Shown: positions 17,651-54,663 of the stretch, one piece after another
Layout: every line of letters begins with the position of its first letter
Position numbering within the stretch: the first letter of the stretch is position 1
Assembly: GCF_030848395.1 (NCBI RefSeq)
Contig: NZ_JAVDBT010000003.1
Coordinates: forward strand, 186,001-250,000
Origin: Pseudogemmobacter lacusdianii
Lineage (GTDB): Bacteria; Pseudomonadota; Alphaproteobacteria; Rhodobacterales; Rhodobacteraceae
Direction of reading: 5' to 3'
Length of the DNA stretch: 64,000 nucleotides
Program-made: the position numbers and the translations under genes
Notes under the pieces: model-generated
Seen by the model: only the letters and a program-made list of their open reading frames with translations
What the model was told of the DNA's origin: nothing
Database searches by the model: none

Positions 17651-19096
17651 TTACAGCAAGCCATCCAGTTTCGAGGAATTAAAATCGGGTCCGGGCACCA
17701 GTTCCACACCCGCTTTGGACATACGAACCTCGACGCCAGCGGCGATGAGGGCTGCCTTCATTGCATCCACCGGCGCGAAGTCTTTAGTGGCTATTGCTGC
17801 CTCGCGAAGGCCCGCCAAATGCGCAGAATAGGGTTGGAGTCTCTCGGCATTCTCTAGACTGGTTTGCAGAGCGCTCTCCCAGTCAGCGCCGAAGCCCAGA
17901 AAGGCCAAACTCGCGTAAAGCCGATCGTATTTCTGCTCATTGTAAAGCTGATGCAGCACTGCGATGGCTTGCGCGGTGTTCAAATCATCCGCTAAAGCCT
18001 CGACCACAGCGGAGTCCGGTTTGGCGAGATGCGGATCGGTGCCCCGCACAGCCTCGCGCCACTTCCGCAACGTCGCCTCGGCCTGACGCGCCTTTTCCGC
18101 CGTCCAATCCATCGGACTGCGGTAATGCGTCATCAGGAACACAAAGCGGATCACCTCGCCTTCGATACCTTTGCCCAACAAATCCCGCACGGTGAAGAAA
18201 TTGCCCAAGGACTTGGACATTTTCTTGCCCTCAACCTGCAGCATCTCATTATGCATCCAGACCGATGCAAACCCGCTTTCCGGATGCGCGCAGCAGCTTT
18301 GCGCGATCTCATTCTCATGATGCGGGAATTGCAGATCCAAGCCGCCGCCGTGGATGTCAAAGCTCGTCCCCAACAGTTCATAAGACATCGCCGAGCATTC
18401 GATATGCCAGCCCGGACGCCCCCGGCCCCAAGGGCTGTCCCAGCCCGGCAGATCGGCATCCGAGGGCTTCCACAAAACGAAATCCATCGGGTCTTCTTTG
18501 AAAGGCGCCACCTCGACCCGGGCGCCGGCGATCATATCATCGACAGAACGGCCCGAAAGCGCGCCATATTCTTTGTAAGACCGCACCCGGAAGAGCACAT
18601 GGCCCTCTTTGGCGTAAGCATGGCCCTTCTCGATCAGCTGCTCGATCATGGCGATCATCGCGCCGATATATTCGGTTGCGCGCGGCTCGGCCCGGCGCAG
18701 GCCCGCCTCCGAGCGGTCCTCGCGGATCGCGGGCCGCAAAGCGCCCAAAGCGTCCATATCGGCGTGATACCACGCGATGGTTTCCTCGGTCCGCTCGGCG
18801 ATCAGCTCTTCCAGCGTCTCACCCCGGCCAAGCGCTTTGCGGCGCTGCGCCTCGGCGTTGATCTTGTCGTCAACGTCGGTGAAATTGCGCACATAGGTGA
18901 CCTGTTCAGGCCCATAAACATGGCGCAACAGCCGGTACAGAGTGTCAAAGACGATCACCGGCCGCGCATTGCCCAGATGCGCCCGATCATAGACGGTCGG
19001 GCCGCAGACATACATCCGCACATCCGAAGGGTTCAGCGGCGCAAAGGCCTCCTTCTTGCGGGTCTTCGAATTCGTCAGCCGGATCGTCACCATCAT
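17651..19096 (-). CDS. cysS: Cysteinyl-tRNA synthetase
   Basis: CysS charges tRNA-Cys. The 481-residue class I synthetase shows the zinc cysteine and HIGH equivalent in [18 protein letters not shown], then [15 protein letters not shown] with the second zinc cysteine, the zinc-ligand region [14 protein letters not shown], and [10 protein letters not shown] as the KMSKS loop. Length is normal. ATG codons occur at 19096 and 19093. It lies upstream of cimA on the same strand. Confidence 0.96.
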
Positions 19097-33750: not shown

Positions 33751-35355
33751 TCAGTTGCGCAGGAAATCCACCAAAGCGGCGGTGGAGCCGTCTTTGCCTT
33801 CGGTCCCCACCCGACCTTCCAGCACCGGCTGCAAGGCCAGGGCCAGCTCTTTGCCGAGCTCAACCCCCCATTGGTCATAGGAGTTGATGCCAAGGATGAC
33901 GCCCTCGACAAAGACCCGGTGCTCATAAAGCGCGATGATCTGGCCGAGCGTGAAGGGCGTCAGTTGCGGATAGGCCAAGGTGGTTGAGGGGCGGTTGCCG
34001 GGGAAGACGCGGTGGCGGGCTTGGCGTTCAAGCTCATCACCTGTGGCGCCTTTGCGGGCCATGATGGCGCGGGCCTCGTCCAAAGACCGGCCGCGCATCA
34101 AAGCCTCGGACTGGGCCAGGCAATTGGCGACCAAAAGGAGATGCTGATGCGCCAGATCCGGCTCATGTCCTTGCTTGGCCACAAGGAATTCACACGGCAC
34201 CACGCGGGTGCCCTGATGGATCAGCTGATAAAAGGCGTGCTGGCCGTTGGTGCCGGGCTCGCCCCAGACCACAGGCCCCGAGGGCAGCGTGAGGTCCGAG
34301 CCGTCGCGGGAGACGCGCTTGCCGTTGCTCTCCATCTCAAGCTGCTGGAGATAGGCCGGCAGGCGGGCAAGGCGCTGGTCATAGGGCAGCACGGCGCGGG
34401 TCGCATAGCCGCAAAGCTGATTGTGCCAGATCCCGACAAGCGCCAGCATGACGGGCATATTCTGCGCCAAAGGCGCGGTCAGGAAATGCTGGTCCATGGC
34501 GCGGCCACCGGCGAGGAAGTCGCCAAAAGCCTTGGGGCCGATCGCCAGCATCAGCGCAAGGCCAATCGGGCCCCACATCGAATAGCGCCCGCCAACCCAA
34601 TCTTCAAAACCAAAGACCCGCTCGGGCACGATGCCGTAAGCCGAGGTCTTGTCCAAAGCGGTCGAGACGGCGGCGAATTGGGCGCCGGGATCCTGCACGA
34701 CTTTTGCCATCCACGCCTTGGCGGTGTCGGCATTGGTCATGGTCTCAATGGTGCTGAAGGTTTTGGAGGCCACAATGACCAAGGTCGTCTCTGGGTTAAG
34801 CCCCTGCAACGTCTGAGAAATATGCGCGCCATCGACGTTTGAGACGAAATGCATGCGCGGCCCGTCATGGTAGGGCGCCAAGGCCAGAACCGCCATCGCC
34901 GGGCCAAGATCTGAGCCGCCAATGCCAATGTTGATCACATCGGTGATCTTGCCGCCCTGCCCTTGGAAACGCCCCTCGCGGAGGTCTTGCGCAAAAGCCT
35001 CCATCCGACCGCGCACGGCGCGGATTTCGGGCATCACATCTTGGCCGTCGGTTTTGATCACCGCCGCATCGTCGGCGCGCAGGGCGACATGTAAGACGGC
35101 GCGGCCTTCGGTGTCGTTGATCTTCTCACCATTGAACATGGCGCTGCGCCGGCCTGCCACGTCTGAGCTTTCGGCCAAAGCCACCAGCAAAGCGCGGGTC
35201 TCGCGGCAAATATTGGTTTTGGAAGCATCAAAGAGCATGCCATCGGCGCGGATTGAGAAATCCGCCGCCCGGTTCGGGGCGTCAAACAAAGACAGGATGG
35301 CGCGGTCAGCCACCTTGGCCTGATGAACACGGAGGGCGGCCCATTTGTCAGTCAT
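33751..35355 (-). CDS. pgi: Glucose-6-phosphate isomerase
   Basis: Pgi interconverts glucose-6-phosphate and fructose-6-phosphate. The 534-residue protein has [29 protein letters not shown] (phosphate binding), [14 protein letters not shown], the catalytic Glu in [15 protein letters not shown], and the catalytic Lys near [11 protein letters not shown]. Length is typical of the large bacterial type. The ATG at 35355 has AGGGG 6 nt upstream. It is the last gene of the zwf-pgl-pgi operon; 99 bp separate it from pgl. Confidence 0.95.
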
Positions 35356-35454
35356 TCTCAACCCCTATTGCAACCGTCACCAAGGTCAAACGGCCCTCAC
35401 GGCCAAATCATTAACGCGCCCATCTGGGCCTAAAGCACTGAAAGACAAGGCTGC

Positions 35455-36129
35455 TTATTCCGCCCAATGCACCACGGCCATATCTAAGACCGCCCGGATT
35501 GGCGCTTGTTCGGGCGAAAGGCTTGCGGCGCGTTCGATGGCCGCACGTTTTTCGGCGCCGGTGATCATCACATGCACCCGCACCGCGGCGCGCAAGACTG
35601 GCGCGGTCAAAGTGACGCGCGGCTCGCCCGCACCTTCGGCCCGCATCGGCAAGATCAGGCGTTGGGTGGCTGACAAGGCCTCTTCCAGCCGGTCGGCGCC
35701 GGGAAAAAGGCTTGCGGTATGCATATCGGCGCCCATGCCCAGAAGCAGCACCGAGATCGGCAGATGCGGCGCAAGCCCGGCCTCTAAGATCTCAACCCCG
35801 TCTTCGGGGATCGAGGGACCGGGGTGATACATCGGGATGAGATGCGCCGCCGCCGCTTTGCCGCGCAAAAGCCGCTCACGCAAAAGCCGGGTGTTTGAGC
35901 GGTCGGAGGTTTCTTCGACCCAACGCTCATCGGTCAGGACCACGGCCACATTGCCCCAGTCCAGATCGACACCCGAAAGCGTGTCGAAGACCGGCCCCGG
36001 CGTGGTGCCGCCCGGCACTGCCAAAGTGGCCTTGCCTTCCCGCCGCAAGGTCTCGGCCAATTCCCCGGCCAAGATATTGGCCAGTTGCAGCTGCATCAGC
36101 TCACGATCGGGGTAGGTCTCAAATTGCAT
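35455..36129 (-). CDS. pgl: 6-phosphogluconolactonase
   Basis: Pgl hydrolyses 6-phosphogluconolactone to 6-phosphogluconate. The 224-residue protein is the DevB/SOL type, with LAVPGGTTPGPVFDTL, VVLTDERWVEETSDRSN, LLLGMGADMHTASLFPG and a C-terminal RAVLDMAVVHWAE. Its ATG overlaps the zwf stop by one base (TGATG), so the two are translationally coupled. It feeds the Entner-Doudoroff or pentose phosphate route with zwf. Confidence 0.93.
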   Translation of the reverse strand: MQFETYPDRELMQLQLANILAGELAETLRREGKATLAVPGGTTPGPVFDTLSGVDLDWGNVAVVLTDERWVEETSDRSNTRLLRERLLRGKAAAAHLIPMYHPGPSIPEDGVEILEAGLAPHLPISVLLLGMGADMHTASLFPGADRLEEALSATQRLILPMRAEGAGEPRVTLTAPVLRAAVRVHVMITGAEKRAAIERAASLSPEQAPIRAVLDMAVVHWAE

Positions 36130-37580
36130 CAGCGTATCTCCCGCCAGCGCCGCCCATCGCGGTGCATCAGCATCAACGCATCCTCGGGGCCCGAGGATCC
36201 GGGGTCATAGGGTTGTGGGCGTTCGCCGCGCCGCTCCCAGCCTTCGATGATCGGATCGGCCCAAGCCCAAGCCGCCTCGACCTCATCGCCGCGCATGAAG
36301 AGGGTTTGGTTGCCACGGATCACATCCATAATCAGCCGCTCATAAGCATCGGGGACATCTTGGGCGGCTTCGCCAAGCGCATCGGCAAAGGACATGTCCA
36401 AAGGCACCTGCGTCAGACGCATCCCGCCCGGCCCCGGCTCTTTGATCATCACCTTGAGGTTCATGCCCTCATCCGGTTGCAGGCGGATCACCAGCACGTT
36501 TTCGCGCCAGCCTTCGGCATCGTCAAAGATTGAATGTGGCGGCTCGCGGAAAGTGATCGCGATTTCTGAGGCGCGGGCGCGCAGGCGTTTGCCGGTGCGC
36601 AGATAGAAGGGCGTGCCCTTCCAGCGCCAGTTCGAAATATGCAGCTTGAGCGCGATATAGCTTTCGGTCTTGCTGTTCTTATTTTCGGCATCTTCCAGAT
36701 AGCTGGCCTGCCCTTTTAGCCCAACATATTGACCGCGCACGATATCTTCGGGGCGCACCGGATCAAGCGCGCGGATCACCTTCAGCTTTTCATCCCGCAC
36801 AGCGTTGGGATCAAAGTGATAGGGCGGCTCCATCGCGATCAGGCAGAGAAGCTGCATCAGGTGGTTTTGCACCATATCGCGCATCGCGCCCGAGGTGTCG
36901 TAATAGGCGCCCCGCCCCTCGACCGAGACGGTCTCGGCCACGGTGATCTGGACATGGTCGACATATTCCGACTTCCAGAGCGGCTCAAAAAGGATATTGG
37001 CGAAGCGGACGGCCATTAGGTTCTGGACGGTCTCTTTGCCCAGATAATGGTCGATGCGGTAGATCTGGCTTTCGGCAAAATGCTGGGCCAGCGTGGCATT
37101 CAGAGCCTTGGCGGTGGCAAGATCGCGGCCAAAGGGCTTTTCGACCACCACACGGGCCTGCGGTCCGGCAATGCCATGTGCGGTCAACCGGCTGGCCAGA
37201 TCGCCAAAGAGCGCCGGCGCCACCGAGAAGTAAAAGGCCTGAACGACGTCATCCCGGACCAGCGCTTTCAGCTGAGGCCAGCCGTTCTCGCCCTGAGCGT
37301 CAACCGCAACATATTGCAGGCGCTTTAGAAAGTCGGCGATAGCGGCAGGGTCTTGCTGGGTTTTCGGCAGAAATTCGGCGATCGCTTCTGCGACGAGGTT
37401 TCGAAACGCCTCATCGCTGAGCTCGCCCCGCGCGGCGCCGATGATGCGGCTGTCATCGGTCATCTGGCCTGCTTGGAAGCGACGGTAGAGCCCGGGCAAG
37501 ATCTTGCGCCGTGCCAGATCGCCCGTGCCGCCAAAGATCACAAGGTCGAAAGGTTCGACCGGGATAACGCGGGAAACCAT
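36129..37580 (-). CDS. zwf: Glucose-6-phosphate 1-dehydrogenase
   Basis: Zwf oxidises glucose-6-phosphate to 6-phosphogluconolactone with NAD(P)+. The 483-residue protein has the Rossmann motif VIFGGTGDLARRKI, EKPFGRD, the active-site sequence RIDHYLGKETVQN with its catalytic His, and GAYYDTSGAMRDMVQNHL. Length is normal. It is first in the operon, with a perfect GTTAGCGCTAAC palindrome 18 bp upstream of its ATG, pointing to LacI-family control. Confidence 0.96.
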   Translation of the reverse strand: MVSRVIPVEPFDLVIFGGTGDLARRKILPGLYRRFQAGQMTDDSRIIGAARGELSDEAFRNLVAEAIAEFLPKTQQDPAAIADFLKRLQYVAVDAQGENGWPQLKALVRDDVVQAFYFSVAPALFGDLASRLTAHGIAGPQARVVVEKPFGRDLATAKALNATLAQHFAESQIYRIDHYLGKETVQNLMAVRFANILFEPLWKSEYVDHVQITVAETVSVEGRGAYYDTSGAMRDMVQNHLMQLLCLIAMEPPYHFDPNAVRDEKLKVIRALDPVRPEDIVRGQYVGLKGQASYLEDAENKNSKTESYIALKLHISNWRWKGTPFYLRTGKRLRARASEIAITFREPPHSIFDDAEGWRENVLVIRLQPDEGMNLKVMIKEPGPGGMRLTQVPLDMSFADALGEAAQDVPDAYERLIMDVIRGNQTLFMRGDEVEAAWAWADPIIEGWERRGERPQPYDPGSSGPEDALMLMHRDGRRWREIR

Positions 37581-39342: not shown

Positions 39343-40128
39343 TTAGGAGGCCGCGACCGCGCGGCCTGTCAGAACCTTGGCCAAATGCGCGCGATAATCG
39401 CCACTGCCATGCAGATCGGCCATCATATCCGCGCCCGAAAGGTTCAGGTCCGACAGGGCCGAGGCTGAGAAGTTGGCCGAAAGCCGCTCTTCTGCGGCTT
39501 TCCAGCGCAAGACGCCGTCATTTGAGGCCCCCGTCACCGCCACCCGCACGCCGTTTGCGTATTTGGCGACGAAGACAGCCGTCAACGCAAAGCGGCTGGC
39601 GGGCTGTTCGAACTTTACGTAAGCCGCGCGTTCGGGGATCGGGAACTGCACCTCGGTGATGATCTCGCCCTCTTGCAAGGCGGTGGTGAAAAGGCCTTGG
39701 AAGAAGTCATCCGCCGCGATTTGGCGCCGGTTGGTGACGATGGTGGCACCTGAGGCGAGTGCCGCTGACGGATAGCAGGCCGAAGGGTCGTTATTGGCCA
39801 GCGATCCGCCGATGGTGCCGCGATTGCGCACGGCTGGATCGCCGATGCCGCCCGCAAGCTTGGCCAAAGCGGGGTAATGCGCCGCCGCCTCGCGCGCCAC
39901 GGCGGCATGGGGCGTCGCCGCCCCAATCCGCAGCACGCCCTGCGCCGCCGCAACCCCGCGCATCTCGGCAATGCCGCCTAGGCTGACGAGCACCGAAGGC
40001 GCGGCCAATCTTTGCTTCATCACCGGGATCAGCGTCTGCCCGCCCGACAGCGCCTGCGCGCCATCGGCGGCCAACGCGCTGACCGCCTCGGCCAGAGTGG
40101 AGGGTTTTACCAGATCAAAAGATTGCAT
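39343..40128 (-). CDS. coxM: Molybdenum hydroxylase FAD-binding subunit (CoxM-like)
   Basis: This 261-residue medium subunit carries FAD and passes electrons from the iron-sulfur subunit to an acceptor. The two FAD loops are visible: ALSGGQTLIPVM (AGGxx type) and TIGGSLANNDPSACYP (TxGG). The C-terminal CO_deh_flav_C domain follows about residue 165. It is last in the cluster, 12 bp after coxL. It is a CO/xanthine dehydrogenase-family subunit; the substrate is set by CoxL, which is of form II type. The symbol is family-based. Confidence 0.85.
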   Translation of the reverse strand: MQSFDLVKPSTLAEAVSALAADGAQALSGGQTLIPVMKQRLAAPSVLVSLGGIAEMRGVAAAQGVLRIGAATPHAAVAREAAAHYPALAKLAGGIGDPAVRNRGTIGGSLANNDPSACYPSAALASGATIVTNRRQIAADDFFQGLFTTALQEGEIITEVQFPIPERAAYVKFEQPASRFALTAVFVAKYANGVRVAVTGASNDGVLRWKAAEERLSANFSASALSDLNLSGADMMADLHGSGDYRAHLAKVLTGRAVAAS

Positions 40129-40140
40129 CTTATCCTCCGC

Positions 40141-42525
40141 TTAGCGTTGCATGGCGGCCCAGACCCTGGACGGGCTGGCCGGCATATCGATGTGGGTGAC
40201 ATGGGTGAAACCGCCGCGATGCAGCGCGTCGAGCACCGCATTGATCACCGCCGGCGGCGAGCCGATCGCCCCCGCCTCACCGCAGCCTTTCACGCCCAAG
40301 GGGTTGTGCGTGCAGGGCGTGGCGCAGCTGTGATCGACTTGGAACATCGGGAAATCATCCGCCCGGGGCATGGCGTAATCCATGTAAGAGCCCGAGAGGA
40401 GCTGGCCGTTTTCATCATAGACGCAATGTTCCAGCAAAGCCTGTCCGATGCCTTGGGCCAGACCGCCATGCACTTGGCCCTCAACGATCATCGGATTGAC
40501 AACATTGCCAAAATCATCCGCTGCCGAGAAGGCGACCACCTCAACCTTGCCGGTCTCGGGGTCAACTTCGACCTCGCAGCCATAGGCGCCGGCGGGATAG
40601 GTAAAGTTCGACGGATCGTAGAAGGCGGTCTCTTCCAGCCCCGGCTCAAGGTTCTCAAGCGGATAGTTATGCGGCACGTAAGCGGCCAGCGTCACATCCA
40701 CCCAAGTCTTTGATTTATCGGTGCCTGCAACGGTGAAGACGCCATCTTTCAGCTCGATATCGGCCTCCGAGGCTTCCATCAAATGCGCCGCGATTTTCTT
40801 GGCTTTGTTGATGATTTTATTGGTCGCCTTGACCATGGCCGAGCCACCCACCGCCAGCGAGCGCGAGCCGTAAGTGCCCATACCCATTGGGGTATTTGAG
40901 GTGTCGCCATGGACAATCTCAATCTGAGAAGCGTCAATCCCGATCATATCCGAGACGACTTGGGCGAAAGTGGTCTCATGCCCCTGCCCGTGGCTGTGGC
41001 TGCCGGTGAAGACGGTGATGGAGCCTGTGGCATTCACCCGCACAGAGGCGCTTTCATAAAGCCCCGCCCGCGCGCCAAGCTGGCCAACAAGGTTCGAAGG
41101 CGCGATGCCGCAAGCCTCGATGTAATGCGCCAGACCAAAGCCGCGCAGTTTGCCACGAGATTTGGACTCTGCCGCACGGGCCTCAAAGCCCGCAACGTCG
41201 GCCATTTCGACCAATTTATCCAATGTCGCCTGATAGTTGCCGGTGTCATAGACCACGGCGACCGGGGTTTGATAGGGGAATTGATCGGGCTGGATGAAGT
41301 TCTGGCGGCGCAGATCGAAGGGCGAGACGCCCAGCTCTCGCGCGGCCTGATCGACAAGGCGTTCCAGCTGGAAGGTCGCCTCGGGACGGCCCGCGCCGCG
41401 ATAGGCGTCGACCGGGACGGTATTGGTAAAGACGGCCTTCACATTCACATAGATCAGCGGGGTTTTGTAGTTGCCCGCCATCAAAGTGCCATGCAGCCAA
41501 GTCGGCACGGAAGGTGCGAAGGTCGAGAGGTAAGCCCCCATATTCGCGTAAGTATCCGTGCGCAAAGCGGTGAAATTGTTCTGCGCATCCAAGGCCAGTT
41601 GGATCTTCGTCACATGGTCGCGGCCATGCGCGTCGGTCACAAAAGCCTCAGACCGGGTCGAGGTCCATTTCACCGGGCGTTTCAGGATATGCGCAGCCTT
41701 GGTGACAAAGGCCTCTTCGGCGTAATGGAAGATTTTTGAGCCGAACCCGCCGCCCACATCCGGGGCCACAACGCGCAGCTTATGTTCCGGAATAGAAAGG
41801 ACAAAAGCCCCCATCAACAGCCGGATCACATGCGGGTTTTGGCTGGTGGTGTAAAGCGTGTGCTGGCCGGTCCATTCCTCAAAATCGCCCACCGCAACGC
41901 GCGGCTCCATCGGATTGGCGACGAGGCGGTTGTTGACCAGTTCCAGCGTGGTGACATGGGCGGCTTTGGCGAAAGCCTCCTCAACCGCCGCCTTATTCTC
42001 TTCGACAAATCCCCAGTCAAAGCAAAGGTTTGAGCCGAGTTCTTCATGCACAAGATCACCACCCGCAACGGCGGCTTTCATATCCATGACGGCGGGCAAT
42101 TCCTCGATCTCGATCACCACAGCCTCGGCGGCATCGCGGGCTTGATCGAGCGTTTCGGCCACGACCACCGCGATCGGATCGCCGACATGGCGCACCTTGC
42201 CCTCGGCGAGGATCGGGTGCTTCGGCTCAAGCATCGCCTTGCCGTGGCGGTCGGTCACCTGCCAGCCGCAAGGGATGCTGCCCGCTTGCGCAAAATCGGC
42301 CGATGTGAAGACCTTAGCCACCCCCGGCATCGCCTCGGCGGCGGAGGCATCGATCGAGATGATCCGGCCATGCGCCACTTCCGAGCGGATAAAATGGGCG
42401 TAAAGTTGGCCGCGAATGTTGATGTCGTCGGTGTAGCGACCTTTGCCGGTTAGGAACCGCAAATCCTCGCGCCGTTTGGTGCTGGCACCAATTCCGCCCT
42501 TATTGGCGATCTCATCTTTGGGCAT
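40141..42525 (-). CDS. coxL: Form II CoxL-like molybdopterin subunit
   Basis: This 794-residue large subunit of the xanthine oxidase family binds molybdopterin cytosine dinucleotide. Family marks are [26 protein letters not shown] and the terminal [14 protein letters not shown] with the catalytic Glu. The active-site loop is AYRGAGR (about residues 374-380). True aerobic CO dehydrogenases (form I) have AYRCSFR with the copper-binding Cys, so this is form II, whose substrate is unknown. The ATG at 42525 is chosen because AGGAGG lies just before it and overlaps the upstream ATG. Confidence 0.88.
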
Positions 42526-42582
42526 CTCATCCCTCCTCATGCAACGCTTTAACTTCGCGCCACAACATGATGAAAATTATGA

Positions 42583-43071
42583 TTATTCAGCAGCGACGCC
42601 TTGCGTGTCCGTCTGGCCGGACGCCTGCAAAACCGCTTTGACGATGTTATGATAGCCGGTGCAGCGGCAGATATTGCCCTCAAGCCCGTGGCGGATCTCG
42701 GCCTCAGTTGGGCGCGGATTGTTCGCCAGCAAAGCCGCCGAGGCCATCACCATGCCCGGCGTGCAGAAGCCGCATTGCAGCCCGTGGCAGTCGTTGAAGG
42801 CCTGTTGCAGCGGGTTCAAACTGCCATCGGCATGGGCCATGCCTTCGATGGTGCGCACCTCGGCCCCGGCCACATCTTGGGCAAAGATGGTGCAAGATTT
42901 CACGGCTTGGCCGTTCACATGCACGGTGCAGGCGCCGCATTGGCTGGTGTCGCAGCCGACATGGGTGCCGGTGAGCCCCGCGCCTTCGCGCAGGAATTGG
43001 ACCAGCAAGGTCCGCCCTTCAGTCTCGGCCGAGACGGCTTTGCCGTTCACGGTCATGGTGACTTTTGTCAT
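42583..43071 (-). CDS. coxS: Molybdenum hydroxylase 2Fe-2S subunit (CoxS-like)
   Basis: This 162-residue small subunit has two [2Fe-2S] clusters. The plant-type N-terminal cluster has [14 protein letters not shown] plus a later Cys (VKSCTIFAQ). The C-terminal helical cluster has [13 protein letters not shown] and [12 protein letters not shown]. All eight cysteines are present. It links CoxL to CoxM. It lies between coxG and coxL with gaps of 35 and 57 bp. Confidence 0.92.
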
Positions 43072-43106
43072 CCGCTCCTCCCTTGGTCATGCCTAGGTCA
43101 AGCTGA

Positions 43107-43640
43107 TCAGCCCCCGATCATGCGGCGGAACCAGCCTTTCTTACTTGTGCCAGTCTCGTCCGGTGCAGCGCCCTCCTCTGGCGCTGCCGCGTCCGCCTCA
43201 CCCGCTTCAACCGCTGCCTGGAAGCGGGTGAAGAACTCGTCCGCGAGTTTTTTCGCAAAACCGTCGATGATCCGGCTGCCGAGTTGGGCAAGCTTGCCGC
43301 CCACGGCCGCATCAACGTCATAGGTTAATAATGTGCCCGCGCCCTGCGCATCGAACCGCACGGCGGCGCTGCCCTTGGCATGGCCTGCGGCGCCGCCTTT
43401 GCCTTCGCCGCTGATGGTCAGCGATTGGCCGGGGATGATGTCGGAAAGCCGCACGAGCCCGGTGAAAGTGGCCGAGACCGGGCCGACCTTTTGCCTGACC
43501 ACCGCCTCATAGCCGTCTTCGACCGATCCGGTGAGGCTTTCGCAGCCGGGAATGCAGGCCCGCAGCACTTGCGGATCCAAGATTGCGTCCCAGACAAGCG
43601 CCGGGGCGGCATCGATGCTGCGGCTGTCAGATAGTTTCAT
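43107..43640 (-). CDS. coxG: CoxG-like SRPBCC protein
   Basis: This 177-residue protein of the CO dehydrogenase subunit G family has the START-like fold pattern: SRSIDAAPALVWDAILDPQVLRACIPGCE, then VGGKLAQLGSRIIDGFAKKLADEFF. An Ala/Glu linker and a C-terminal amphipathic end (SKKGWFRRMIGG) follow. In Oligotropha, CoxG anchors CODH to the membrane; by analogy this tail may do the same. The ATG at 43640 has GGGAG upstream; the GTG at 43646 lies too close to it. It starts the enzyme block, 45 bp after the kinase gene. Confidence 0.83.
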   Translation of the reverse strand: MKLSDSRSIDAAPALVWDAILDPQVLRACIPGCESLTGSVEDGYEAVVRQKVGPVSATFTGLVRLSDIIPGQSLTISGEGKGGAAGHAKGSAAVRFDAQGAGTLLTYDVDAAVGGKLAQLGSRIIDGFAKKLADEFFTRFQAAVEAGEADAAAPEEGAAPDETGTSKKGWFRRMIGG

Positions 43641-43685
43641 GATCACTCCCTTGGCAAAAAGCCTAAAGCGGCGGGGCGCGGCGCG

Positions 43686-45497
43686 CTATGAAACCTTGGT
43701 CGTAGTTTTCATCATGGCGCGGCCTTCGAGCGGCAAAGTGATGCGGAAGGTGGCGCCGCGTCCGGGGGCGGAGATCAGTTCGAGCGGATGGCCGAGAAGA
43801 CGGCAGGCGCGCTCCACGATGGCAAGGCCAAGGCCCATGCCTTCGGAGGCAGAGGCGCGGGCGTTAAGCCGTTGGAATTCCGCAAAGATCAGCTCTTGCG
43901 CGGCTTCGGGGATGCCGGGGCCGGTGTCGCGCACCTCAAGCCGCAGGGTGCTGCCCCGGCGGCGGACGGCGATCAAAACGCGGCCTTTATCGGTGTAGCG
44001 CACCGCATTGGCGATCAGGTTTTGCACGATGCGGCGCAGGTAGCCGGGGTCGGAGAGCACCAAGGCTTCGGCCCCGCGTAGGTAAAGGCCAAGGCCCTTG
44101 GCACCGGCGATGGGGGCGAATTCCTCGGCGAGTTGGTCGAGCAAGGGGCCAAGGGCGACGGGCCCAATCGAGAAGGCCAAGCGGCCGGCTTCAAGCTTTG
44201 AGATATCAAGCAGCGCGCCCAAGATGCCTTCCACCGATTGCAGGGCGTTTTGGGCTTTGTCCAAGGCGGCCTCGCCGTCCCCGGCGGCTGCGGCGGCGAT
44301 GTAAAGTTTTGCCGCTGCAAGGGGTTGCAGAAGGTCATGGCTGGCGGCGGCGACAAAGCGGCTGCGGGAGGCATTGGCGCGCTCGGCATCCGCCAGCGCA
44401 TCTTCCAGCTCTAATGTGCGGGCGCTGACGCGGGCCTCCAGCGTTTCATTGGCGCGGTGCAGCGCGGCCAAAGCGGCGCGTTCGGCGGTGACATCGGTCA
44501 GGCTCATCACAAAGCCGCCGTCGGGCAGTTCTTGCGCGAAAACGGTGAGGACAAGCCCGCCGGGGCGCTGGAGGGTGAAGGTCAGCGCGGGGCGGCCCGG
44601 TCCCTGCCCGGCCCAAGCCGCCAAGGCCTCGGCGCTGATGCCGGTGAGCTGCATCTGGGATTGGACCCGCGCCAAGACCCGTTCAAAACTGGTGCCGAGG
44701 CGCAGTTGCGCCAAAGGGATCATCGCCAGAAAGCCAAGGCGCTGGTTCCAGCCAGCGAGCTGAGCGCTCGCGTCGAAGACGGCGACGCCTTGGTCGAGAT
44801 GGTCCAAGGTCGCGCGGATCATCTGGGCTTGGTCATCAAGCATCCGCCCGCGTTCCACCCTTTCATTGCGGATGATATCGGTGACATCGGTTTGCAGGAC
44901 GACGGTGCCGCCCTCGGCGGTGCGGTGTTCGCTGACTTGGATCCAGCGGTCCCAGATCATCCGCACGTTGAAGATGACATGGCGCTCTTGGTGGCGCAGC
45001 AGCCGTTGTTCGCGCCATTGCGCGGGGGTTAGCCCCTGCGGCAGTGCCAGATGTGACGAGCGGCTGACGAGGGTGACGTAATCAGCAAAGCCCAGACCGG
45101 GGCGGATCTCGTCGCGGATATCGGTCATATGCATCGCAAAGCGCGCGTTGCACAGGATCAGAAGGTCGTCGCGGTCAAAGAGCGCAAAGCCTTCTTGCAC
45201 GGTCTCGATCGCGCTGGCGAGGTTGGCGCGGGCGGCCTCGGTCTCGGCCATAGCTTCGGCCAGTTTGGCGTTGGAGAGGTTGAGAAGATCGAGCGCATGT
45301 TCAAGGTCGCGGGTGCGGTCGCGGACCTGATCTTCCAGCATGGCGGCGCGCTGGAACTGGGCGTAAGCGGCGCCGGACTCGTCGGTGACCGCCTCAACCC
45401 GGGCCATCAAAGCGCCAGCGATGGCGAGGAGTTTCTCAACCCTGCGTTCGGGGCCATCGGCGGGGTCGATCAGGGCTTCGGCGAGGGCTTCACTCAT
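43686..45497 (-). CDS. PAS-containing sensor histidine kinase
   Basis: This 603-residue cytoplasmic kinase has an N-terminal coiled coil (about residues 45-95) and two PAS domains (about 95-210 and 225-340). A second coiled coil leads to HisKA with H387 in FVAAASHDLLQPLAAAKLY, and then HATPase (NLIANAVRYTDKG, DTGPGIP, GMGLGLAIV). There is no receiver domain and no membrane segment. The type resembles the NahK/ErcS-like kinases often found with FIST proteins. Its ATG overlaps the FIST stop (ATGA), so the two are translationally coupled. It likely signals to the LuxR-type regulator at 46739. Confidence 0.9.
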   Translation of the reverse strand: MSEALAEALIDPADGPERRVEKLLAIAGALMARVEAVTDESGAAYAQFQRAAMLEDQVRDRTRDLEHALDLLNLSNAKLAEAMAETEAARANLASAIETVQEGFALFDRDDLLILCNARFAMHMTDIRDEIRPGLGFADYVTLVSRSSHLALPQGLTPAQWREQRLLRHQERHVIFNVRMIWDRWIQVSEHRTAEGGTVVLQTDVTDIIRNERVERGRMLDDQAQMIRATLDHLDQGVAVFDASAQLAGWNQRLGFLAMIPLAQLRLGTSFERVLARVQSQMQLTGISAEALAAWAGQGPGRPALTFTLQRPGGLVLTVFAQELPDGGFVMSLTDVTAERAALAALHRANETLEARVSARTLELEDALADAERANASRSRFVAAASHDLLQPLAAAKLYIAAAAAGDGEAALDKAQNALQSVEGILGALLDISKLEAGRLAFSIGPVALGPLLDQLAEEFAPIAGAKGLGLYLRGAEALVLSDPGYLRRIVQNLIANAVRYTDKGRVLIAVRRRGSTLRLEVRDTGPGIPEAAQELIFAEFQRLNARASASEGMGLGLAIVERACRLLGHPLELISAPGRGATFRITLPLEGRAMMKTTTKVS

Positions 45498-46636
45498 GTT
45501 GTGACCTCGGGCGCCCAGATCGCCATGCCGGTCATGGTCTGGTTGACATGCATCGCATTGACCTGCTCGCCATAAGTGGAGAAGCCCACCACGCCATGCG
45601 CGCGCAAGATGGTGGACACTGCGCTAAAACGTTGATTTTCCTGCGCCTCCATCCGCCGCAAGATGCAATCGCAGGCCAAGATCGCATCGGGCGCGCCCGA
45701 TTTGCCCATCTCGCGCAAAGCGCCTTCCAGATGGGCGGCGATGTCCTGCGGCTCGGCCAAGGTCAGCACCAGCCCCTCGGCGATGGCGGAGAAGAAGACG
45801 AGATCGCCGTTCGGCTCCATCCGCTGGATGGCGCGGACATGCGGGCGGCCGCCGACGCGCACGACCAAGGGATGCGCGGCGAAGGTGAAGGCGGTCAGCT
45901 GCTCGGGGTCTTTGCCCAAGAGGCGGGCATATTCGCGGGCGGCGGGTTCGGCGTTGATGCTGCGCACGATGCGGCGGGCGGGGTCGGCGCCGGTCACGAC
46001 CATGCGCCGCGCGGTGGGCACGAGATGGTCCAGGCTGAAGACTTTGACCCGGCAGGCCGAGCGCGCCATGAGGACCACGGCGGCATGGTCATGAACCTGC
46101 CCGTCCCACAGGAGTTTGGCTTGGCCAAAGCGGGTGCCATCCCCGGCCGAACCGCCGAACAGCGGCACCGGGCCAAGGCCGGGGGCAAGGGCGGCGGTCA
46201 AAGCATCCTCACGCGTTGAGGTGCCATCGACCATCAGAAAAGCAAATTCGGTTTCCCATTCGGGGCGGGCTTGCGCGAGTTTGGAACGCGCGCGGATGAG
46301 GCCGCCAATCAGCGCTTGCGGGTCGAGCGCGCTGAGGTCCGGCACGGGTAGGATCTCAGTTGCGAACATCGCTTGCGGCAGGCCGATGGCAAGGATGGTG
46401 TCCTCGGCATAGCCCTCGGCGGTGATCTCTCCGGCCGTTGTGCAGCCCAAGACGGGGGCGCTGAAAAGCGCGGCCCCGGCGGCCAGAGCCTCAAGATCGG
46501 CCTCGGGCGCGGCGAAAAGCACCACGGCGGCGAAGGGACCGGGGCCAAGCCCGCGCTGCAAAAGCGCCATGGCGTCCTTGGCCCGCGCCGAGACGCTGGC
46601 GCGCGGCATCACCGTGGCAAAGCGCAAGTCCCTCAT
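45494..46636 (-). CDS. FIST-domain sensory protein
   Basis: This 380-residue protein contains FIST_N (about residues 30-225; VLGCTTAGEITAEGYAEDTI, PLFGGSAGDGTRFGQAKLLWDG) and FIST_C (about 225-365; ILACDCILRRMEAQE, VVGFSTYGEQVNAMHVNQT). FIST modules are thought to bind small ligands, such as amino acids, and are found with signalling proteins. It lies between the response regulator (102-bp gap) and the kinase (4-bp overlap), so it may report a ligand to that kinase. The ligand is unknown. Confidence 0.88.
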   Translation of the reverse strand: MRDLRFATVMPRASVSARAKDAMALLQRGLGPGPFAAVVLFAAPEADLEALAAGAALFSAPVLGCTTAGEITAEGYAEDTILAIGLPQAMFATEILPVPDLSALDPQALIGGLIRARSKLAQARPEWETEFAFLMVDGTSTREDALTAALAPGLGPVPLFGGSAGDGTRFGQAKLLWDGQVHDHAAVVLMARSACRVKVFSLDHLVPTARRMVVTGADPARRIVRSINAEPAAREYARLLGKDPEQLTAFTFAAHPLVVRVGGRPHVRAIQRMEPNGDLVFFSAIAEGLVLTLAEPQDIAAHLEGALREMGKSGAPDAILACDCILRRMEAQENQRFSAVSTILRAHGVVGFSTYGEQVNAMHVNQTMTGMAIWAPEVTT

Positions 46637-46738
46637 CAGCCGCCCTCCCCGGTGCTGCGAGCCTTCACGGGGGCAAGCCTAAGACGGAAGCGCGCTTTGC
46701 GCCAAGCGCAACCTGAAGGGCGTGGGGCGAAAAGGCGT

Positions 46739-47434
46739 TCAGCCCGCCTCGGGCACCAATGCGGCGAAGCTGGCCTCTTTGGCCAAAAGCACCGCTTGCG
46801 TGCGGCTTTGCACGCCCAATTTGCGCATCGTGGCGGTGACATGGGCTTTGACGGTGGTCTCAGCGATCGACAGTTCCCATGCGATTTGCTTGTTGAGCCG
46901 CCCTTCGCAAATGAGCTGCAGAATCCGCGCTTGTTGCTTCGTCAGCGCGCTGAGGCGTTGGATGGCGTCCTCTTGGCGGCTGACCAGGCCGCAGAGACCG
47001 GGCGGTTGATAGCCCTCGGGGAGCCAAGTTTCGCCAGAGCGCAGGGCTTCAAAGGCGGCGCGAAACACCTCACGCCGGGAATGTTTCGGCACGAAAGCCG
47101 CTGCGCCCGCCGCCATGCAGGCGGTGATGACCCGGTCCTCGGCCATTGAGGAGACCACCACAACCGGCACCCGTGCCGCCGTTTGGCGCAAGCGCAACAG
47201 CCCCTCAAGCCCCTCAACATCCGGCAAATGCAGATCCAGCACGATCACATCGGGGGCAGGCCCCTGCCCCAGCCGCGCCAAAGCGGCATCAAGCCGGTCG
47301 GCCGTGTCAATCCGCGCGATCCCCACCACCGCCTTCAGCGTCATCGCCAAAGCGTCGCAGAACAAAGGATGGTCATCAATGATCAGCGCCAGATCTAGCG
47401 CGACGGGCTGGCTTTGCGGCTGGCCTTCGAACAT
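46739..47434 (-). CDS. LuxR/NarL-type response regulator
   Basis: This 231-residue protein has a receiver domain (LALIIDDHPLFCDAL; phospho-acceptor D67 in VIVLDLHLPDVEG; PVVVVSSM; AFVPKHS with the conserved Lys) and a C-terminal LuxR HTH (LTKQQARILQLICEGRLNKQIAWELSIAETTVKAHV). It is the first gene of the seven-gene run leading into the cox cluster. The ATG at 47434 has GGGGAGG upstream. A near-match to a CtrA half-pair (TTAA-N7-CTAAC) lies at 47456-47471, of doubtful meaning. Confidence 0.9.
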   Translation of the reverse strand: MFEGQPQSQPVALDLALIIDDHPLFCDALAMTLKAVVGIARIDTADRLDAALARLGQGPAPDVIVLDLHLPDVEGLEGLLRLRQTAARVPVVVVSSMAEDRVITACMAAGAAAFVPKHSRREVFRAAFEALRSGETWLPEGYQPPGLCGLVSRQEDAIQRLSALTKQQARILQLICEGRLNKQIAWELSIAETTVKAHVTATMRKLGVQSRTQAVLLAKEASFAALVPEAG

Positions 47435-47605
47435 CACGCGCGGCCTCCCCTCCGCTTAAAGAAAGGCTAACACCGGCGCGGCGCTGTCGCTATAGCGCAA
47501 AAGTCCAACTTCCGCCGATGCTTTGGGCAAGGCTTGCCCCAAGGCTTGCTCGTGCCGCGCGCGCGCCCTATCCCTTGGCAAAATGCCAAGATCCAAAGGC
47601 CTCTG

Positions 47606-48061
47606 ATGCTTCTCAACCGCCGCTTTCTTCTTCTCGCCCCCTTGGCTCTGGCCGCTTGTGGCGCAGGCAAAAGTGACCCCGCCCCTAAGGGCCTGCATAG
47701 GGGCGAGACGCCGGAAATGCGGGCCTTGATCCGCAAATATGCCAAAATACACGATATTCCGGAAAGCCTGCTGCATCGGGTGATCCAGCGCGAAAGCGGT
47801 TATAATGCGGGGGCGCGCAATGGCCCCTATTACGGGCTGATGCAGATCATGCCGCAAACCGCCCATACGATGGGGTATCGCGGCGCGCCCGAGGGGCTCT
47901 TGGACGCCGAGACCAACCTGCAATATGCTGGCAAATATCTGCGCGGTGCCTGGCTGGTGTCGCGTGGCAGCGAAGAGCGCGCGGTCAGCTGGTATGCCAA
48001 GGGCTATTATTACGAGGCTAAGCGCTTGGGCCTGTTGAAAGAAACCGGGCTGCGCAGCTGA
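47606..48061 (+). CDS. Lipoprotein lytic transglycosylase (SLT domain)
   Basis: This 151-residue protein starts with a lipoprotein signal peptide ending in the lipobox LAAC (C18). A lysozyme-like SLT domain follows with the catalytic E63 in IQRESGYNAGARNG and GLMQIMPQTA. It should cut the glycan strands of peptidoglycan at the membrane face. The ATG at 47606 is chosen because the lipoprotein signal starts there. The next gene starts within its stop codon (TGATG), so the two are coupled. Confidence 0.88.
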   Translation: MLLNRRFLLLAPLALAACGAGKSDPAPKGLHRGETPEMRALIRKYAKIHDIPESLLHRVIQRESGYNAGARNGPYYGLMQIMPQTAHTMGYRGAPEGLLDAETNLQYAGKYLRGAWLVSRGSEERAVSWYAKGYYYEAKRLGLLKETGLRS

Positions 48062-49787: not shown

Positions 49788-51850
<2,063 letters not shown>

Positions 51851-52243
51851 TTAGCGCGCGGGGCTGGCCAGCCCTGAAAGGATCGGACAATCGGGTCGTG
51901 CATCGCCGCAACAAGCGCCGACCAGATCGCTCAGCACCCTCTGCATCGCCCGCAATTCGCTTAACTTCGCAGCGATCTGCTCAAGATGCCGCTCGGCCAA
52001 GGCTTTCACATCGGCACTCGCCCGCGCTTTGTCTTCGTAAAGCGCCAGCAAGGCGCGGCAATCCTCAATCGAGAAGCCAAGCCCGCGCGCACGACCGATG
52101 AAGGCAAGCTTGTGCAGATCGGTCTCGCGAAAATGCCGGTAGCCATTGGCGCCGCGCTGCGGATGGATGAGGCCGATCTCCTCATAATATCGGATGGTTT
52201 TGGCCGGCAGCCCAGCCCGCGCGCCCACCTCTGAGATGTTCAT
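51851..52243 (-). CDS. cueR: Copper-responsive MerR-family regulator CueR
   Basis: CueR senses cytosolic Cu(I) and activates copper export genes by unwinding a 19-bp-spaced promoter. The 130-residue protein has the MerR HTH ([26 protein letters not shown]), the dimer helix, and the metal loop [13 protein letters not shown], with C111 and C119 in the CueR CX7C spacing. Its ATG overlaps the copA stop by 4 bp, so it is made from the copA transcript. Confidence 0.92.
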
Positions 52244-54663
52244 GACAGACCTCCTTCACGGCCAAACCGCCGCAATCGCAACGCATTGCCTAAGACAAAG
52301 ACCGAAGACAAAGCCATCGCCCCCGCCCCGAGCATTGGCGACAGCTGCGGCCCGCCAAAGGGCACCAAAGCCCCCGCCGCAACCGGGATCAGCGCGATGT
52401 TATAGCCAAAGGCCCAAGCCAGATTTTGCCGGATGTTGCGCATCACTGCCCGGCTCAGCCGCACCGCCGCCGCCACCGCGCGCGGATCGCCGCGCATCAA
52501 GACCACCTCACCGGCCTCGATCGCCACATCGGTGCCACCGCCCATCGCAATGCCAACATCCGAGGCCGCAAGCGCCGGGGCATCATTGATGCCGTCCCCC
52601 ACAAAGGCGCCGCCGTTTTGCTGCAATATCTGCAGCTTACCTGCGGGCAAAACCTCACCATGCACCTCATCAATGCCAAGCTGCCGCGCCACTTTTTGCG
52701 CTGCTGCCCGGCTGTCGCCCGAGACGAGTGCCGTGCGCAGTCCCATATCATGGAGTGCCGCAATCGCCTCGGCTGCGCCCGGTTTCAGCGGGTCTGCCGT
52801 CAGAATCAGCCCCGACACCACACCCTCCCGCGCAACGTAGAGCAAGCTCTCTCCTCGCTCGGCCGCTTCCTGCGCCAGAAGCGCCAGATCCGCTGGGATG
52901 TTCTCAAACATCCGCGCGGCACCAACGGCGACCTCTGCCCCCTCGATCTGCGCCAAAGCGCCGTACCCCGGGCGGGCCGTGAAGCCTTCTGCGATGGGCA
53001 GATTATGGCCCTTCGCGGCCTCAAGAACAGCGGCGGCCAAGGGATGCTCGCTGCCCGCCTCGACCGCGGCGGCCATCGGCAGCACCCAATCGGGGCCATG
53101 CACGGCAACGACTTGCGGGCGGCCCATGGTCAACGTGCCGGTTTTGTCAAAGCTGACGCTCCGGATATCTGAGAGCTGCTGCAAGGCATCGCCGCGGCGG
53201 AACAGCACGCCCATCTCAGCCGCGCGGCCGGTGCCGACAAGGATCGAGACCGGCACCGCCAGCCCCATAGCGCAAGGGCAAGCGATGATCAGCACCGCCA
53301 CTGCCGCCACCATGGAGCGCGCGATATCGCCAGTAAGTGCCAGCCAAATCAACGCGGTAAAGAGGGCCACCGCCATAACGGCAGGCACGAACCACAGGGT
53401 CACCCGGTCGACCAAAGCCTGCACCGGCAGCTTGGCGCCTTGCGCCTCTTCCACCATCGCAACAATTCGGGCCAGCGTGGTCTCGGCCCCGACCGCCGTC
53501 ACCTGCACCACCAAAGCGCCAGTGCCATTGACGGTGCCTGCGGTGACCTTATCGCCGGGGCCTTTGGCTTGCGGCACAGGCTCCCCCGTCAGCATCGCCT
53601 CATCCACCGCCGAGCGGCCACTGATGACCGTGCCATCCACAGGCACCCGCTCACCGGGGCGCAAAGCGATGCGCTGGCCGGGGGTGAGGCTGGCCACCGC
53701 CACCTCCTCGCCGCTCTCAAGCCGGGCAAACCGCGGCTGGAGGCCGATCAGCTTAGCGATTGCCGCCCCGGCCCGGCCCCGCGCCCGCGCCTCTAAAGCG
53801 CGGCCCAGAAGGATCAAGGTGATGATGACGGCAGCCGCCTCGAACCAAACCGCGCGGTTCTCAGCCGGGATCAACGCGGGCGCAATGAGCACCAGCGTGG
53901 AAAAGCCCCAAGCGCTGAGCGTGCCAAGCGCCACCAAAGCATTCATCTCAGGCGCGCCGCGCAGCAAGGCGGGGATGCCTTTGGTGAAAAACCGCCGCCC
54001 GGGCAGCGCCAAAACCAGCGTGGCGAGCAGGAATTGTGCAAGCCAGAGCGGGGTTTGGCCGATGCTGGCATAAAGCCAATGGTGAAAAGCCGGGATCAAA
54101 TGCCCCGTCATCTCGGTCAGGAAGATCGGCAGCGTCAAAGCGGCGGCAAGGGTGAAATCGCGCCAAAGCTGGCGCTCTTCATTGCCCGCCCTGTTATCGG
54201 AGCCAACCGGCGCCGCTTCGGGCGCGACAGCCGAAGCCGCAAAGCCCGCCGCAGTCACGACCTTCGCCAAAGCCTGCGGATCAAGCCGCTCCCAGCCGCT
54301 GACCTCAACCCGGCGGGTTGCCAGATTGGCCCGCGCCGTGGCGACGCCGGGTTGCGCTTGCAAGACCCGCTCCACCCGCCCGGTGCAAGAGGCGCAACTC
54401 ATGCCCTCGACGTTCAGATTTAGCGTTTCGGTCTGGCTGGGATAACCCGCATCCGCCAGCACCTGCGCCATCTGGGCACGCGTGGCGGGGGCGGTGAAAG
54501 CAACCTCGACCCGGCCAGTGGAGAAATTGGCCGCAGCGGCGCGCACGCCGTCAAGCGCGGTCAACGCCCGCTCGACCCGGCCCACGCAAGAGGCGCAGCT
54601 CATGCCCTCCAGCGCGAAGCGTGCGGTCTGCAGGTCGGGGGCGGACGTGAGGGGGCGCGACAT
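52240..54663 (-). CDS. copA: Cu(I)-translocating P1B-type ATPase
   Basis: CopA exports Cu(I) across the inner membrane. The 807-residue protein has two N-terminal heavy-metal domains ([10 protein letters not shown] near residue 19 and [10 protein letters not shown] near residue 88) and eight membrane segments. It has the transport motif [10 protein letters not shown], the phosphorylation site [11 protein letters not shown], the SEHPLA nucleotide-binding motif, and [11 protein letters not shown]. The set is complete for a P1B-1 pump. It is preceded by a CueR-type promoter and followed by cueR. AAGGAG is placed just before the ATG. Confidence 0.96.

Follow-up and report, generated by a model that had tools for sequence, protein, structure and literature searches.

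A candidate CrbR/ErdR-type operator before form II cox genes and a predicted tie to alcohol oxidation in Rhodobacteraceae

What does a form II CoxL enzyme oxidise, and why do its genes follow those of a signalling system? This question is raised by a seven-gene run in a 64,000-nucleotide stretch of Pseudogemmobacter lacusdianii (Rhodobacteraceae; contig NZ_JAVDBT010000003.1, positions 186,001 to 250,000; hereafter the window), in which genes for a LuxR-type response regulator (RR), a FIST sensor protein and a PAS histidine kinase (HK), together the trio, lead into coxG, coxS, coxL and coxM (coxGSLM). PMC13240472 describes the substrate of form II CoxL as unresolved. We favour, at a probability of roughly 60%, the reading that coxGSLM would belong to an alcohol-oxidation regulon and supply its aldehyde-oxidising step, with the RR directly activating coxGSLM from a candidate operator located partly within the 3' end of the kinase gene. 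New here is the recognition of a putative operator of published CrbR/ErdR type before coxG; no published cox–trio, cox–PQQ (pyrroloquinoline quinone) or FIST–PQQ link was found in the titles and abstract openings of one open library.

Linkage of trio, cox and alcohol oxidation genes in relatives

A FIST search at E 1e-20 hit 56 of 149 genomes of the same family. The closer FIST group (FIST-A, 49–66% identity in relatives, plus the window's own protein) comprises 49 hits from 48 genomes, and a CoxL orthologue (at least 57% identity, fragments included) is present in 114, FIST-A and CoxL having been counted by hand. FIST-A and CoxL genes lie at most 20 kb apart on one contig in 21 of the 41 genomes that have both (chance would give about 0.5 for independent genomes, and these genomes are not independent), so the lack of synteny that a first-pass annotation, made from the sequence alone, had named as fatal to its proposed regulatory link is not seen.

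Several layouts emerged when 18 query proteins were mapped onto 80 regions of at most 20 kb, some of them shortened by contig ends (L and G numbers denote loci and genomes). The trio is followed by coxGSLM on the same strand in the window and in L046–L051 (fused loci), and is divergent from it in L032, L033, L035, L036 and L037, as well as in L034 with pedC and its ATPase gene in between. A cluster around a PQQ-dependent alcohol dehydrogenase (PQQ-ADH) gene separates trio and coxGSLM in L039, L040, L042–L045 and, with cut ends, L041. The RR gene alone precedes coxGSLM, with the FIST and HK genes elsewhere, in L092 and L052; L038 has PQQ-ADH and no coxG, and L057/L111 and L070/L105 are broken by contig ends. 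Trio and coxGSLM also diverge in Ruegeria sp. THAF33, where the genes listed for 29 kb include none for PQQ. The fused layout is likewise seen in Rhodobacter ruber CCP-1 and Gemmobacter tilapiae.

The link with alcohol oxidation, which the first-pass annotation had drawn from Pseudomonas, is borne out in relatives by the adjacency of trio, PQQ-ADH cluster and coxGSLM. By NCBIfam, the genes between trio and coxGSLM include those for PQQ-ADH, PQQ-linked ABC proteins, a beta-propeller protein, PedC and PedF. On plasmid pSpoCB-2 of Sulfitobacter sp. CB2047 (L116), pqqA–E, the trio, the PQQ-ADH cluster and coxG-S-L-M form one block, with coxM extending past the stretch examined; no aldehyde dehydrogenase is listed in 29 kb of this plasmid, for which the gene table is incomplete. 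The plasmid was typed as conjugative. PQQ-ADH of the ped/exa kind occurs in 31 of the 149 family genomes. Neither PQQ-ADH (TIGR03075) nor pqqC gave a match in the window genome (G000), which has no recognisable ped/exa cluster, and the same holds for G026, G121, G034, G010, G043, G112 and G037 among the 18 genomes tested; in genomes without these genes the trio mostly still lies beside the cox genes, being split in G034 and apart from them in G037.

A second Asp in motifs of the WD(Y/F/H)DGVN type is read as a lanthanide mark, and this motif is present in all 16 PQQ-ADH genes examined from L038–L070, which suggests lanthanide-dependent enzymes. PedH has Asp in place of Ser (PMC5487730).

Across the class, 13 of 288 genomes, including three of the same family, have a FIST match at E 1e-50. 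None of the ten such loci fetched (two of the same family) has cox genes in the stretch covered; L132 and L133 have PQQ-ADH next to the trio, and in L138 it lies further off.

A candidate operator before coxG

CrbR activation of acs requires an ACTU motif, and acs transcription starts about 36 bp past the end of that operator (PMC5715377). We scored promoters, on the strand of the gene, with a position weight matrix (PWM) of 15 published ACTU sites against 95% and 99% null thresholds. In the first set of loci, 31 of 35 coxG promoters exceed the 95% and 28 the 99% threshold, the misses being L043, L075, L095 and L046 (the last has a site, but further upstream), and the operator starts 53–75 bp before the start codon in 29 of the 31 (88 bp in L071, 95 bp in L073). 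The window's coxG site scores highest of all coxG promoters (19.0). The 95% threshold is also passed upstream of PQQ-ADH (20/21), an ABC binding-protein gene (11/18), pedF (9/16) and RR (19/39), and rarely upstream of coxS without coxG (2/24), coxL (2/57), coxM (2/55) and FIST (1/41). Similarly, in a second set of 80 loci, at least ten of which (including 4 of the 27 coxG loci) appear to repeat first-set genomes, sites precede coxG in 26/27, PQQ-ADH in 36/37, RR in 25/77, coxS in 2/24, coxL in 1/23, coxM in 1/21 and FIST in 1/80 cases.

With a 5-site PWM, 31/35 and 26/27 coxG promoters pass in the two sets, as do 1/41 and 2/80 FIST promoters and, in the second set, 1/2 of coxS without coxG, and none of the same coxG promoters passes when shifted upstream (0/35 and 0/27). 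Reverse strands of the coxG promoters pass in 18/35 and 12/27 cases because the site is nearly palindromic. A symmetrised PWM applied to both strands found only 2/10 ped-locus coxG promoters, less clear than the published orientation, and was set aside. De novo motif searches returned TACGACCAtTGTgCAATTTc upstream of 16 PQQ-ADH genes (score 199, shuffled 52–53) and, upstream of 16 RR genes, a motif with a core in common with it (99, shuffled 54–57).

Within the window, the coxG site is the top match over both strands of the 64 kb; in the whole genome it is the sole match, at up to one mismatch, to a 17-bp pattern built from the fused loci with the window site itself included (two matches for the reversed control pattern). 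Additional matches to this pattern in L126 and L128 fall within open reading frames and were rejected. The site starts 64 bp upstream of the coxG ATG, and its letters encode the last HK residues and the T of the HK stop codon, an overlap with the kinase-gene end that recurs in three relatives (L141, L157, L049). In G034, the RR gene lies directly before coxG with the operator between them and FIST–HK elsewhere. An ACTU-type operator before its target, the sign of an ErdR/CrbR regulon, is therefore present as far as sequence can tell, and the trio–cox link proposed in the first pass, conserved in relatives, now has a candidate cis-element; a regulatory connection between trio and cox genes is strongly indicated.

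Locus L158 has three operator-like sites in a row (18574–18660) before coxG, about 6 kb beyond the kinase gene; judged by eye, MoxR- and CoxE-like genes apparently lie between kinase and coxG. It was dropped as an instance of coxG without coxSLM, as the stretch ends inside coxG.

From these data we infer a mechanism in which a signal to FIST or PAS would pass through the kinase and RR to the operator and thereby to coxGSLM transcription. The enzyme would oxidise an aldehyde to the acid, and its FeS and FAD subunits would hand the electrons on, via CoxG, to the quinone pool; CoxG links CO dehydrogenase to quinone (Kropp 2025, as cited in PMC13240472), and in Sulfolobus a protein resembling CoxG tethers another enzyme to the membrane (PMC11962113). 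The same operator before PQQ-ADH and coxG in relatives, and often also between pedF and the ABC binding-protein gene, would mark an alcohol-oxidation regulon, of which coxGSLM would remain the regulator's one evident target in the window lineage, where PQQ-ADH and pqqC were not found. Since operator and synteny tie form II CoxL to this regulon, its substrate may be an aldehyde fed by an alcohol dehydrogenase.

Several observations weigh against this proposal. FIST-A is absent from 73 of the 114 family genomes with a CoxL orthologue, and the enzyme is therefore not dependent on the trio; trios without cox genes occur outside the family (8 loci; Shinella); and within the stretches covered, L053, L071/L218 and L177 have coxG beside the trio without coxSLM, such that CoxG may serve enzymes encoded elsewhere. 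On the operator side, regions upstream of HK, which lie in FIST coding sequence, pass the 95% threshold in 15/39 cases; three coxG promoters stay under it (L043, L075, L095); L090 has an operator although its genome lacks FIST-A; and the 5-site PWM passes 4/24 coxS without coxG and 3/57 and 3/23 coxL promoters. The de novo motif from nine ped-locus coxG promoters differs from the operator, presumably representing the end of the preceding gene, and the RR gene in the window has no clear operator upstream, with weak resemblance only. A scan of the HK–coxG junction found no consensus sigma-70 promoter, which may be compatible with an activated promoter. Additionally, P. putida does not require the homologous kinase PedS1 for activation through PedR1 (PMC13390443), and CoxL also resembles quinoline 2-oxidoreductase (1t3q, 526 bits).

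An operator precedes the trio-adjacent coxG in L053, L071/L218 and L177.

Enzyme class, substrate and transcription units

The form II assignment of the first-pass annotation proved sound. The AYRGAGR loop in place of AYRCSFR occurs in all 20 CoxL proteins checked, the window's included, so that a Gly stands where form I has its active-site Cys, and the genes follow the S-L-M order that marks form II CoxL. The closest NCBIfam models of the L, M and S subunits are NF041018/19/20, which we take to be Sulfolobus-type glyceraldehyde dehydrogenase; these are the best curated matches, but all three fall below the equivalog cut-offs and coxG is present here. CoxL scores 670.5 bits against NF041018 (alpha subunit, cut-off 790) and 639.8 bits against the CO dehydrogenase model TIGR02416 (cut-off 991), and therefore qualifies as neither enzyme. 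Gene context and nearest models make an aldehyde the most likely substrate.

Of the alternatives, one keeps appreciable weight even if it is unlikely: coxGSLM might hydroxylate an N-heterocycle or another non-aldehyde, with co-regulation of PQQ-ADH reflecting carbon or energy status and not one pathway. The quinoline 2-oxidoreductase resemblance is in its favour, as is a match of CoxL to 6-hydroxypseudooxynicotine dehydrogenase (7dqx, 437 bits); repeated siting with alcohol oxidation genes, the common operator and the glyceraldehyde dehydrogenase models as nearest for all three subunits, though below cut-offs, speak for an aldehyde instead.

A second alternative concerns transcription. The first-pass annotation had read the seven genes as a possible single operon, which would run from a promoter before the RR gene, leaving the motif before coxG a functionless remnant. 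Short intergenic gaps, the overlap of the site with the HK coding end, and a HK–coxG junction with neither a terminator-like site nor a consensus sigma-70 promoter fit such an operon. It is nonetheless very unlikely, since the operator–coxG distance is similar in every layout, including those with the trio divergent or elsewhere, and the upstream-shifted promoters gave no passes. An operator at the HK–coxG junction stands where an activator acting on a coxG promoter should bind; coxG therefore probably has a promoter of its own, and a split into two transcription units is more probable than a single one.

That the enzyme is a CO dehydrogenase is almost certainly wrong: the TIGR02416 match, the presence of coxG and a best Protein Data Bank (PDB) match to the CoxL chain 8uem would fit, but the score lies under the cut-off, the loop Cys is replaced by Gly, and PMC13240472 and PMC6794299 call form II activity unresolved or CO not a substrate.

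An aldehyde assignment within an alcohol-oxidation regulon would matter beyond this locus, as form II CoxL is very common in the family (114/149 genomes). It points to inducers and a regulator, which makes a long-unassigned enzyme testable, and it would help to keep form II genes out of counts of CO oxidisers.

Sensor system, maturation genes and feature coordinates

The trio is a predicted NosP/NahK/ErdR-like signalling system. FIST matches the NosP model (NF041558) at 357.8 bits, under the 450 cut-off, and the best NCBIfam model for the RR is ErdR (NF041830, 157.5 bits, under 390). The Pfam scan of HK shows neither a membrane nor a receiver (REC) nor an SLC5 domain; at 603 aa it is as short as in L141, L157 and L032, most relatives having about 730–800 aa. 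The C-terminal receiver of the hybrid kinases NahK and ErcS' is thus missing in the window and, by Pfam, in L032; among relatives it is present in L048 and L050, below cut-off in L062 and not found in L046.

In P. putida, PP_2663 (nosP-like), pedS1 and agmR (pedR1) are part of the ped alcohol-oxidation cluster (PMC12997753), so the first-pass claim that such trios govern alcohol oxidation in Pseudomonas stands in outline and is weaker for the kinase, PedS1 being dispensable. The Pseudomonas ped/exa cluster shares with the relatives a NosP-like FIST protein, a PAS kinase and a LuxR-type RR beside PQQ-ADH, PedF and ABC genes. It differs in that here the form II molybdenum hydroxylase would replace NAD-dependent PedI at the aldehyde step, in that no PQQ-ADH was detected in the window genome, and in the window kinase lacking a receiver. 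The CrbS/CrbR (MxtR/ErdR) acetate regulon is similar in RR subfamily and operator, whereas in the window Pfam detects no SLC5 domain in the kinase, a FIST gene accompanies the kinase gene, and the target would be coxGSLM.

The first-pass annotation had suggested that the enzyme's substrate or product might be the ligand of FIST or PAS; for FIST, binding of an aldehyde has a structural parallel. Its structure model (pLDDT 90.8) matches human FBXO22 over the full length (Z 21.6, rmsd 3.1, 259 residues aligned), the next-best fold match being chorismatase (Z 12.7), and the FIST profile pairs an invariant Cys (C324 in the window) with FBXO22 Cys326 at a weak sequence E of 0.042; one other FIST protein gives the same pairing at E 0.1. 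The protein thus has an FBXO22-like fold with a Cys aligned to Cys326, if weakly, and aldehydes add covalently to that Cys326 (PMC11208438). FIST might then sense an aldehyde through a reversible hemithioacetal at Cys324, with removal of the aldehyde by coxGSLM closing a feedback loop; we regard this as quite unlikely. Counting against aldehyde sensing, all 17 of the diverse FIST proteins compared share this Cys, which may therefore be structural or a heme ligand; the reported function of NosP is heme/NO sensing (PMC12570481, PMC11237717). Conserved residues with a view to heme and NO binding are C65, H204, C324 and H363. Neither the single protein nor the A1 profile gave a usable match to PDB sequences. 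Aldehyde sensing by FIST, if real, would provide this large orphan sensor family with a candidate class of ligands.

The cluster contains no coxD, coxE or coxF, as first noted. On another contig of the same genome (C15), genes for a MoxR-type AAA protein, CoxE and XdhC are followed by infC in a row (L221, 6017–12282); coxSLM is missing from this, its usual xdhC–infC site, and the three proteins would mature the enzyme in trans. CoxE, XdhC and infC likewise occur without coxSLM in G026 and G135; in G121 the infC side is outside the view. Among 26 loci with coxS and without coxG (stretches of at most 20 kb, most 14 kb), XdhC was found in 21, a MoCF-domain gene in 19, infC in 16 and CoxE in 13, and coxSLM lies between xdhC (or MoCF) and infC in four of five that were order-mapped. 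This form II cluster of the same family (coxSLM with coxE and xdhC) has orthologous SLM subunits and the AYRGAGR loop, and the window differs from it in having coxG and the operator, away from the xdhC–infC site. As CoxL is present in one copy in the window genome (E 1e-100) and the infC site lacks coxSLM, the enzyme genes either changed both place and control, or the infC-site copy was lost after their arrival.

On the CoxL tree, the presence of coxG is not clustered (16 changes, shuffled mean 18.8), and a single origin of coxG-bearing cox loci is not claimed; fused loci fall into two groups, needing at least two changes. On the FIST tree they may have a single origin. A phosphoglucomutase gene upstream of the trio in the window recurs in L046–L049, L051 and L092, and a lytic transglycosylase gene near the trio also occurs in L049 and L050 (window neighbours upstream of the trio: 47534–48061 and 49788–51578); these common neighbours indicate that the fused loci share one chromosomal site.

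All seven open reading frames have the order and strand first described and the expected Pfam domains (Table 1). Of the spacings first given, 102, -4, 35 and 12 bp are correct, and 45 and 57 bp apply only from inner ATGs (otherwise 39 and 42 bp). CoxG matches the PDB entries 2pcs (E 1e-18) and 8uds, itself a CoxG (E 3.3e-12).

Table 1 Features of the trio–cox locus in window coordinates.
Feature	Coordinates	Strand	Basis
RR, REC+GerE, LuxR-type helix-turn-helix, ErdR/CrbR-like, GTG start	46739..47437	-	Pfam, NCBIfam
FIST_N+FIST_C sensor protein, NosP-like, conserved Cys324	45494..46636	-	Pfam, NCBIfam, structure model
HK, PAS_7 (2 stretches)+HisKA+HATPase, NahK/ErcS'-like core	43686..45497	-	Pfam, NCBIfam
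Candidate operator TACGACCAAGGTTTCAT, CrbR/ErdR ACTU type	43688..43704	-	PWM score, top 64-kb match
coxG, GTG start; ATG at 43640 also possible	43107..43646	-	PF06240, PDB matches
coxS, [2Fe-2S] subunit, Fer2+Fer2_2	42583..43071	-	Pfam
coxL, form II molybdopterin subunit, MoCo-binding domains, AYRGAGR; start may be 42525	40141..42540	-	Pfam, NCBIfam
coxM, FAD subunit, FAD_binding_5	39343..40128	-	Pfam

Elsewhere in the window, a pgi-pgl-zwf run and a MerR regulator gene beside that of a heavy-metal P-type ATPase were observed (33751–37580 and 51851–54663).

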